Origin: Omnitrophica bacterium GWA2_41_15
GTDB lineage: Bacteria; Omnitrophota; Gorgyraeia; Gygaellales; Profunditerraquicolaceae
Assembly (NCBI GenBank): GCA_919902045.1
Contig: CAKKSP010000031.1
Coordinates: 1-43,640 of the forward strand
Direction: 5' to 3'
DNA: 43,640 bases
In this document: positions 24,201-25,522 of the stretch, one piece after another
Layout: each line of letters starts with the position of its first letter
How positions within the stretch are numbered: the stretch's first letter is position 1
The notes under the pieces: model-generated
Databases searched by the model: none
The model's input: the letters and a program-made list of their open reading frames with translations, nothing else
What the model was told of the DNA's origin: nothing
Program-made: the position numbers and the translations under genes

Positions 24201-24432
24201 TGTTCCTAAAACAAATACCTATTCTTTTAATTTTTTAAGCAATATCCGCGTTACATATCATAATCCTGGCCGCAAAAATACCTTTGGAAAAAATGGCGCA
24301 AAAATTCAGAAGATATCTTTTTCTGATGCAAACGGCTCACCCGTAGAGATCAATGGTGATTCTATCCCCTCTCCATACGCTCTACAAATCCGAGAACAGC
24401 TAATTAAAAAGATTGATATATATTTGAGGTAG
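21202..24432 (+). CDS. Cellobiose-phosphorylase-like / (alpha/alpha)6 glycoside-processing enzyme
   Basis: FASFLPGIAGKYGIPMWAFYVNRGQAIASFGTRDKDHAIMEYFPANKSWEFT; GDLERDYNRFQLQSAYFSQGNGNYRDVNQNRRSNTWFNPKVGDENIITFLNLLQTDGYNPL; family assigned from recall only. Confidence 0.55.
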   Translation: MTTKSKRENPKYSLNKSGEFVISEFDNAKPFASFLPGIAGKYGIPMWAFYVNRGQAIASFGTRDKDHAIMEYFPANKSWEFTQTLGFRTFIKVFKGKNFSFYEPFRQDLNSLNYKRTNRMEITSYDLKITETNLTLGLEIEVKYFTIPNEPFAALARQVTIKNLSSAPKKIQLLDGMPQIVPFGTNNWCLKKMGRTIEAWMAVENLENHAPFYRLTVDPADRPQVIHIKEGNFYLGFTEEEDKNTLIKPIVDPEAIFENISDFSYPKLFIEKTNFPYPAGQFGKNKMPAGFLLLDLTLNKGQTKTLSALAGYMDNMPGLNASLKKITTPGYLKQKEEENRKLVEDLQQEIHTESAKPEFNLYAKQTYLDNILRGGYPVIFENSTTNKLFYLYSRKHGDLERDYNRFQLQSAYFSQGNGNYRDVNQNRRSNTWFNPKVGDENIITFLNLLQTDGYNPLIVKGVHFILDNIDGFKNELLKNIDGQIAEIILKELKKPFTPGEIIIFLEQNKLRLKISHDEFLKILISFSHMQQDAEHGEGFWIDHWTYNLDLIENYLGLFPEKLKELIFEKKVFTYYDNTHIVKPRSQRYVLWEGLPKQLHSVTTDEEKKELISQRNHLPHLIRTQYGKGEIYYTTLAEKLLCLLANKITSLDPSGCGIEMEADKPNWFDSLNGLPALSGSSLCETIELKRLILFFINSIEKTGVESILVAEELHDFLKEVAKLLKDWQAQNINERDFIYWDQSNTAKEEFRLKTKLGFSGITREIKLECLKELWQAAIFKVENAISKSQNNGIFTAYFMHEIKDYEKISASHIKPLKFIQKKLPLFLESQMHAMRIYDQKTAKNIYEKTKKSLLFDKKLKMYKVTAPLASMPEEIGRCRVFTPGWLENESIWLHMEYKYLLEILKQGLYEEFYADIKNTFIPFQPASRYGRSILENSSFIVSSAFPNAKLHGTGFVSRLSGSTVELISIWLAMNVGKNPFYLDNEGKLNLKFAPALAGWLFVPKTNTYSFNFLSNIRVTYHNPGRKNTFGKNGAKIQKISFSDANGSPVEINGDSIPSPYALQIREQLIKKIDIYLR

Positions 24433-24454
24433 GGGAGGTTTAAACCTCCCCTAC
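24429..24454. repeat. Palindrome family 2, copy 2
   Basis: GTAGGGGAGGTTTAAACCTCCCCTAC. Confidence 0.9.
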
Positions 24455-24460
24455 ACTCTT

Positions 24461-24534
24461 GTCATTGCGAAGCCATGCGTAGCAGGGCTGAAGCAATCTT
24501 AAAGGATAGATTGCTTCGCTTCGCTCGCAATGAC
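24461..24534. repeat. Interspersed imperfect palindrome (GTCATTGCGA...TCGCAATGAC type)
   Basis: Inverted arms GTCATTGCGA / TCGCAATGAC and GAAGCAATC / GATTGCTTC. Confidence 0.8.
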
Positions 24535-24630
24535 AGTTTAACTTGTTGTGCAATTTATAAATTTACCATTTGTGCACCTTGAATAGCTTATAAACTATGC
24601 TATACTTAAATTAGAAAATTTGAGTTCCTA

Positions 24631-24753
24631 CTGATAAAGGCAAACCAGCAGTAATGCTGGGACCCCGCCAAAAAGATTGGCGGGCCCGCCGAAGCATTGT
24701 GGCGGGGCAAAGTCATGAGCCCTTAAGAAGATTAAGGGTGGTCTGGCCGCCAA
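24631..24753 (+). ncRNA. c-di-GMP-I (GEMM) riboswitch-like aptamer with a 43-nt double-hairpin insertion (24664-24706)
   Basis: GATAAAGGCAAACC AGCA GTAA TGCT GGGAC ... GCAAAGTC ATGAGCCCTTAAGAAGATTAAGGGTGGTCTGGCCGCC; GNRA-capped P1b hairpin; removal of CCCGCCAAAAAGATTGGCGGGCCCGCCGAAGCATTGTGGCGGG restores GGGACGCAAAG. Confidence 0.75.
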
Positions 24754-24770
24754 AGAGGTAATAATTTGAT

Positions 24771-24796
24771 ACCCTAAGGCCAACCTTAGGGTTTTC
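24771..24796 (+). terminator. Candidate intrinsic terminator / expression platform downstream of the riboswitch
   Basis: ACCCTAAGG CCAA CCTTAGGGT TTT. Confidence 0.6.
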
Positions 24797-24915: not shown

Positions 24916-25185
24916 ATGATTGCACAGACACACAAAATCCAGCGCGTAGTAACCTTCTTGAACCGTAATGAGATTGATTTTTTGGACAAATTCGGCAAGG
25001 ACGCGCTCTTCTCTACCGGATCTAAACTTTCCAGGGCCAAGCTTATTGCCTGGATGGTTGATATTTTAGATCAGCTTAAGGTCAGCGGTAAAGGTATCCG
25101 TTCTGAAAAAGATTTTGAGCAGAAAGTTATTGAACTTTTAAAAAAACAGAACCCACCTGCCACGGAAGGGTCCCCCCTGCCTTAA
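24916..25185 (+). CDS. Small protein downstream of the riboswitch, function unknown (helical, possibly DNA-binding)
   Basis: RBS-like AGAGG upstream of ATG at 24916: MIAQTHKIQRVVTFLNRNEIDFLDKFGKDALFSTGSKLSRAKLIAWMVDIL; the longer start at 24817 overlaps structured leader. Confidence 0.65.
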   Translation: MIAQTHKIQRVVTFLNRNEIDFLDKFGKDALFSTGSKLSRAKLIAWMVDILDQLKVSGKGIRSEKDFEQKVIELLKKQNPPATEGSPLP

Positions 25186-25230: not shown

Positions 25231-25467
25231 ATGAAAAAACTTATCCTCGCAACACTTTTAAGCATGATAATTTTAAGCATGGCAGGCGGATTGGCTTTTG
25301 CTGAAACAAAATCATTGGTAGTTTCCTGCACTATTCCGGCAATTCCAGGTGTAAATGTTCCACTTATTGAGGAGCAGAGTGTAAGGCAAGCTGAAGTTAC
25401 TCAAACCGAGGTTATTGAAGAAGAAACTAAACCCATGCTGTTGGTAAAAACTCTTTATGATCGCTAA
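25231..25467 (+). CDS. Small secreted peptide, unknown function
   Basis: RBS AAAGGAGAAG; signal peptide MKKLILATLLSMIILSMAGGLAFAE then VSCTIPAIPGVNVP. Confidence 0.65.
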   Translation: MKKLILATLLSMIILSMAGGLAFAETKSLVVSCTIPAIPGVNVPLIEEQSVRQAEVTQTEVIEEETKPMLLVKTLYDR

Positions 25468-25472
25468 CCTTA

Positions 25473-25498
25473 GTAGGGCAGGTTTAAACCTGCCCTAC
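25473..25498. repeat. Palindrome family 2, copy 3
   Basis: GTAGGGCAGGTTTAAACCTGCCCTAC. Confidence 0.9.
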
Positions 25499-25522
25499 AC
25501 AGCTTAATTGGTCTTTTCTTAT

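Follow-up and report, generated by a model that had tools for sequence, protein, structure and literature searches.

The c-di-GMP-I aptamer is among the best-studied riboswitches. To our knowledge, no helical insertion has been reported inside the internal loop of its P2 helix, two base pairs from the ligand, and keyword literature searches for such an insertion found none, most subscription papers lying outside their scope. Aptamers of this class (GEMM-I; RF01051 and RF03167) combine the helices P1, P2 and P3 with a GNRA tetraloop, a pocket of ligand contacts (G20, A47 and C92), and an interhelical pair between C44 and G83 (PMC3764141, PMC4744006), the pairing of C44 with G83 being described in known structures (PMC3764141). 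They precede genes for pili or signalling and are followed by a terminator. The RNA described here is the same in all these respects, and differs from the standard form by a pair of additional hairpins between C44 and G45, which would make a four-way junction of P2 and for which the Rfam models hold no helix.

The inserted hairpins have their own parallels. Small dispersed palindromes are found in bacterial genomes, as REP/BIME/REPIN and the Rickettsia palindromic elements (PMC3733652, PMC3116915); the present elements differ in consisting of two tandem palindromes with a linker of 0-2 nt, often inside structured RNA genes. In the mitochondria of the fungus Allomyces, according to PMC2800124 (citing Paquin et al. 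2000), short dispersed double-hairpin elements, to which other repetitive hairpin elements are related, lie in genes, are retained in the transcript, and are described as lacking flanking target duplications. The likeness to these elements is one of form; the present ones are bacterial, and occur in a riboswitch core, in RNase P RNA and in tRNA 5'-end fragments. In the literature searched, from which most subscription papers were again absent, we found neither a report of comparable hairpin elements in a riboswitch core, nor a paper joining Omnitrophota or Omnitrophica with riboswitch terms.

The assembly that contains the window (the whole stretch of DNA analysed, 43,640 nt) as its contig 31 has 1.14 Mb and is 82% complete. 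The 43-nt insert of the window (24664-24706) lies in the 3x3 internal loop of P2, between the nucleotides numbered C44 (24663) and G45 (24707) in Vc2, and zero nucleotides separate hairpin A from hairpin B, or either hairpin from the flanking core. The initial annotation had proposed a c-di-GMP-I aptamer split by a 43-nt double hairpin, and every element that it named was found in its place, exact to the base: the -10-like TATACT lies upstream at 24601-24606 (TG-extended, 16 nt after TTGAAT), and the 3' hairpin with T-run is a terminator-like hairpin at 24771-24792 plus a T-run. Its description of the insert as two back-to-back palindromic repeats was right as well, and the hairpin pair proved in addition to be dispersed in the window genome and in others. 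In the features listed below, R1 is a covariance model made from the window copy and its paralogues L004 and L006 (the window score of 158 bits is that of one of its own training members), and A3 is an alignment of 109 matches to this model.

24579-24606, forward strand: putative sigma-70-like promoter, TTGAAT-16-TATACT with extended -10 TG (consensus only; about 0.8 expected by chance; a TATGCTATACT block also precedes paralogues L004 and L006).
24628-24758, forward strand: insert-bearing c-di-GMP-I (GEMM) aptamer (partial RF03167 match, 27.7 bits; 158 bits to R1).
24632-24633 with 24751-24752, plus outer pairs, forward strand: P1 of the aptamer (structure counted in alignments).
24639-24641, forward strand: G20 (24639, ligand contact), G21 and C22, the basal P2 5' strand (A3 columns 20-22).
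24639-24646, forward strand: GGCAAACC motif (read in the sequence).
24645-24660, forward strand: upper P2 stem, CCAGCA-GUAA-UGCUGG, with GUAA (GNRA) tetraloop (six of six pairs covary in A3).
24661-24663, forward strand: G42-A43-C44 of the P2 internal loop, C44 being 24663 (C44 in 105/106 of A3).
Ending at 24663, forward strand: GGGAC (read in the sequence).
24664-24684, forward strand: inserted hairpin A, CCCGCC..GGCGGG (sequences largely unrelated among relatives; all pairs covary).
24685-24706, forward strand: inserted hairpin B, CCCGCC..GGCGGG, abutting A (all pairs covary in A3).
24707-24711, forward strand: G45-C46 (basal P2 3' strand), then A47 (24709), A48 and A49; GCAAAG starts at 24707 (A47 in 106/106 of A3).
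24711-24749, forward strand: P3 helix with bulged G83 at 24741 (compensatory changes; bulged G in 93/95).
24750, forward strand: C92, ligand contact (96/102 in A3).
24771-24795, forward strand: predicted intrinsic terminator, 9-bp stem and T-run, presumed expression platform (sequence pattern).
24916-25185, forward strand: presumed controlled gene, 89 aa, unknown family (relatives in 70/148 genomes).
25231-25467, forward strand: second small gene, signal-peptide-like, 78 aa (read as an open reading frame; co-transcription inferred).

The contiguous core GGGACGCAAAG is absent from the window copy, being broken by the 43 nt, and P2 has its expected features: the GNRA tetraloop, an internal loop of GGCAAAC / G-R-C, and basal pairs that are standard in 100% of cells. 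The pocket bases are G at 24639 (G20), A at 24709 (A47) and C at 24750 (C92), and both C44 (24663) and G83 (24741) are present and conserved in A3; some P3 positions are weak, with A-C and U-U in an alignment of the three copies of the genome. A scan of the whole window with Rfam placed zero riboswitches above gathering score. Run on the region alone, cmscan gives c-di-GMP-I-GGC (RF03167) at 24630-24673 with 27.7 bits (E 2.4e-4; cut-off 59), and the RF01051 score of the window copy is 27.8 against a cut-off of 35. Paralogue L004 stands above this cut-off (35.6 bits), and the cmscan alignments of L004 and L006 span the insert and cover the full family model (34.5 and 28.9 bits). Of 20 insert-bearing relatives, 12 fall below the Rfam cut-offs, as does the window copy. 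Such aptamers explain why standard annotation misses many riboswitches of Omnitrophota. A gathering score is an annotation threshold rather than a functional feature: by pocket and architecture this RNA is a c-di-GMP-I riboswitch that fails the contiguous-core and Rfam-score features, and it is a variant of the class, not a standard member, because there are relatives of this leader whose aptamer is uninterrupted.

The window copy is not alone in its genome (G000), where the RF01051 search gives 11 matches, among which L004 and L006 bear a double insert of the same kind whose arms differ. In these three copies 96.1% of the structure cells pair, 9 pairs have two-sided changes (3.4 when shuffled), and G20, A47 and C92 are the bases of c-di-GMP binders in all three. 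In L004 the basal P2 pair C22-G45 is replaced by U22-A45, closing directly across the insert. The same genome holds an empty site, L003, the uninterrupted 5' half of an L004 paralogue, whose flanks are nearly identical (GGGGAC, then immediately GCAAAGCCACCGATCCTAATCATA). Two further c-di-GMP-I-like RNAs, L008 (1501-1619) and L009 (1501-1607) on contig C34, lack the usual 5' half and read AAAAGCC-hairpin-GGAAAGCCACGGGCGTTA..GCCGGGTTGCCGAA; they are possibly another structural variant.

Beyond this genome, a search of 148 related genomes with R1 gave matches in 129, which fell into two length classes (near 90 nt, and roughly 120-200 nt); most members of the long class keep this core and have, at the corresponding position, two hairpins that are unrelated in sequence. 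One genome per bacterial or archaeal species was also searched with the pattern GGCAAACY-NNNN-GNRA-NNNN-RGGRC, 36-66 nt, GCAAAGC, which returned at least 120 stretches. Among the matches listed, double-hairpin inserts are found mainly in Candidatus Omnitrophota, and in a few records of Auribacterota and PVC; those labelled Clostridia, Proteobacteria or Bipolaricaulota proved to be chance matches, tandem aptamers, or aptamers without insert in which GCAAAGC happens to recur. The sequences of L200 (labelled Planctomycetales) and L182 (labelled 'bacterium') are the same as those of genomes of the window's family. At least 80 distinct sequences have two abutting hairpins of at least 4 bp each, a form that shuffled inserts reach in 1.3 of 80 on average.

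About 100 insert-bearing aptamers could be aligned, almost all from Omnitrophota. In A3, which includes a few reverse-strand or uninterrupted secondary matches and is fitted to R1, 96.1% of cells are paired, the covariation score is 0.711 (0.193 when shuffled, at most 0.124 for slid structures), and every pair of both inserted hairpins covaries. Two-sided changes affect 31 of the 34 pairs, the covariation support in homologues whose absence from the flanking helices the initial annotation had named as grounds for refuting its reading. The basal pairs are unbroken (G21-C46 in 105/105; C22-G45 as CG in 100, UA in 3 and UG in 3), and conservation reaches 104/104 for G20, 106/106 for A47, 105/106 for C44, 93/95 for bulged G83 and 96/102 for C92. 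Conservation in the G20, G21 and GCAAAG columns is partly imposed, because some of the input sequences had been picked with a pattern in which the letters of GGCAAAC and GCAAAGC are fixed; loci obtained from R1 without that pattern have the same bases. With their very different hairpin sequences, these natural examples amount to a ready-made insertion library, showing which places of a compact RNA are open to insertion. A one-off insertion is ruled out by the paralogues and relatives.

Taken together, we consider it probable that double-hairpin repeats have recurrently entered a permissive P2 site, leaving a four-way-junction aptamer that still senses c-di-GMP. The 43-nt element, sitting in the P2 internal loop between C44 and G45, would convert P2 into a junction at which the 2 basal pairs and upper P2 meet hairpins A and B (a geometry inferred from the pairing). 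It leaves intact the interhelical C44-G83 pair, the pocket for the ligand, and both the GNRA tetraloop and the helix that receives it. Such an RNA most likely still binds c-di-GMP, an inference for which there are no binding data, and the downstream gene would be controlled by transcription termination through the hairpin at 24771-24795. The putative source is a set of dispersed palindromic double-hairpin repeats, repeatedly entering structured RNA genes in Omnitrophota, for which C44/G45 would be a favoured and permissive position in the c-di-GMP-I aptamer. That insertion, rather than loss, is the direction of change is likewise inferred.

Could the two hairpins instead be an adaptive module kept by selection, the junction altering how fast the RNA folds, its affinity or its dependence on magnesium, or the loops binding a second factor? 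With hardly an exception, the inserts consist of two hairpins. Of 296 genomes of the class, 182 have at least one uninterrupted core and 57 match the insert pattern (about 74 insert-bearing places by hand count among the matches listed, 13 uninterrupted rows being set aside). Only 8 pattern matches in these genomes have the size of a single hairpin, at most one of them genuine, the others being either part of a double insert or a copy without insert; single-hairpin inserts, considered as a sign of general tolerance, are virtually absent from the 296 genomes. The constant form, two hairpins without linker whatever their sequence, speaks for such a module, as do the very wide distribution and the compensatory changes by which the hairpin pairing is kept (for example L123 compared with L153, or L119 with L197). 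However, the loop sequences are unconserved, and the related genes of most relatives do without the insert. Because dispersed elements built in this way also occur outside the riboswitch, selection within the aptamer is not required to account for two hairpins, and we regard the adaptive explanation as rather unlikely while keeping it in play.

These dispersed elements are best seen in the window genome, where CCGCC-N-GGCGG palindromes occupy 33 places (9 for a reversed control pattern), and where five CCGCC doubles are found by pattern, the window copy included. The window itself has 3 occurrences of CCGCC-N4-12-GGCGG for 0.13 expected, more than chance would give. Tandem CCGCC doubles are present in 28 of 148 relatives, compared with 0 for the control pattern, and when one locus was fetched per genome, about half of the 28, read by eye, were in or at structured RNAs. 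In three genomes of the family a double lies inside RNase P RNA (L288 1236-1692, L290 1387-1785, L291 118-524; RF00010 at 138-165 bits), apparently at one common site (GGATAT or GGATTT, element, GAGAGCYACAGAG). Double- or single-hairpin elements also accompany tRNA 5'-end fragments (e.g. GGGGTGCTTAGCTCAG..), some adjoining an intact tRNA gene (L030 238-360, at 5537-5659 of contig C10 of the window genome, L034, L038, L281, L287, L292, L294, L298 and L300); these fragments were recognised by eye, and ARAGORN calls none of them genes. In the window genome, for instance, two copies of this kind stand beside an intact tRNA-Val. Other positions in the c-di-GMP-I aptamer can be occupied, as in L282 (1433-1540), with a double hairpin at the P1-P2 junction, before GGCAAACC, and still 61.9 bits, or in L296 (near 1501), with a double hairpin in the 5' strand of P2. 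A second repeat family, TGAACC-N-GGTTCA, has 16 copies in another genome, G356 (control 0), to which both pattern-matched riboswitch inserts of that genome belong and which also includes a free-standing double; in nine other genomes this pattern has only 0-3 matches each.

In both G000 and G356, judged by sequence likeness, the inserts match the genome's own dispersed repeat family, which suggests such an origin for at least some of them, that of most being unsettled. Mobility of the element is inferred solely from dispersal and from presence or absence at related genes. A wider proposal, that bacterial double-hairpin elements move by preference into structured RNA genes (riboswitch core, RNase P RNA, tRNA), perhaps via RNA, and have repeatedly built, at one exact position, a new four-way-junction riboswitch whose function is kept or retuned, is offered as a tentative hypothesis, a little short of an even chance in our judgement. 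The link with RNase P RNA and tRNA fragments makes the spread of the element, and its landing in structured RNAs, testable.

The presence or absence of the insert can be followed at one leader, that of the 89-aa gene. Relatives of this gene, a widespread and conserved family in Omnitrophota, often lie directly behind a c-di-GMP-I aptamer, and a small protein similar to the 78-aa product is found behind the insert-bearing aptamer of L100; a Pfam search of both proteins (89 and 78 aa) gave zero matches above cut-off. In the leaders fetched for the 89-aa gene, the aptamer is uninterrupted in about 30 relatives and has the double insert in G000, G018, G033 and G030, and also in more distant relatives of the gene (L103, L123, L127). 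No target duplication was visible when filled and empty sites were compared. Homologous genes with insert in distant families (L103, L123, L127), together with the wide distribution in the class, are what a single ancient insertion would leave, inherited with many losses and with sequence turnover, in place of recurrent insertion. Against it, the inserts of G000 and G356 belong each to their own genome's repeats, and on a tree of 21 short proteins of the 89-aa type insert presence has to change state at least 5 times (4-7 over bootstraps), with poor support. One origin is not ruled out by this tree, and the tree was dropped as proof of recurrent gain, its support being too small; a single ancient insertion seems to us unlikely, at perhaps one chance among a few.

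The genes behind insert-bearing aptamers, judged by eye, show the usual c-di-GMP repertoire: among them are genes for type IV pilins and pseudopilins, for ATPases resembling PilT and PilB, for response regulators and for secreted proteins. A terminator follows within 140 nt in 61 of the 98 insert-bearing loci with enough sequence (shuffled mean 2.6), and the window genome encodes 8 GGDEF domains; from the terminators, the gene repertoire and these domains, a working c-di-GMP switch of transcription termination is therefore inferred. The mode of switching is less clear. A downstream segment (such as UUUGCCUUU) is complementary to the aptamer's AAAGGCAAA in 25 of 101 insert-bearing loci, for 5.3 expected. 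Because same-sense matches are likewise raised (16), and the window copy has a match of 6 nt only, no specific anti-terminator is claimed for it. General anti-terminator pairing with the GGCAAA segment of the aptamer was set aside, there being no convincing one at the window, and the direction of regulation is unsettled.

Does the insert nevertheless inactivate the aptamer, as the initial annotation had allowed, leaving decaying pseudo-riboswitches? The split of GGGACGCAAAG and the sub-threshold Rfam score of the window copy would fit such decay. However, about 100 examples retain the ligand and tertiary contacts with the pairs flanking the insert unbroken, the terminators counted above are retained, and the genuinely broken copy of the same genome, L003, looks different, having the 5' half only; covariation and pocket conservation speak against inactivation, which we judge very unlikely. 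Its other suggestion, a natural variant tolerating a helical extension, is strongly supported by the same covariation and pocket conservation, and the search of related genomes that it had proposed found both same-site insertions and uninterrupted homologues. The altered ligand response that it had also raised, for instance a change of specificity to c-AMP-GMP, which rare GEMM variants do sense (PMC7266159), is hardly credible, the insert replacing none of G20, A47 and C92, and these specificity positions being unchanged, with the bases of c-di-GMP binders in the copies of the window genome and in nearly all relatives.

Other repeats surround the locus. Upstream of the promoter, 24468-24537 forms a long imperfect inverted repeat (TGTCATTGCGAAGC..GCTTCGCTCGCAATGACA) that looks like a dispersed repeat, and a near-identical palindrome, GTAGGG(G/C)AGGTTTAAACCT(C/G)CCCTACAC, flanks the riboswitch and its two genes at 24429-24456 and 25473-25500.
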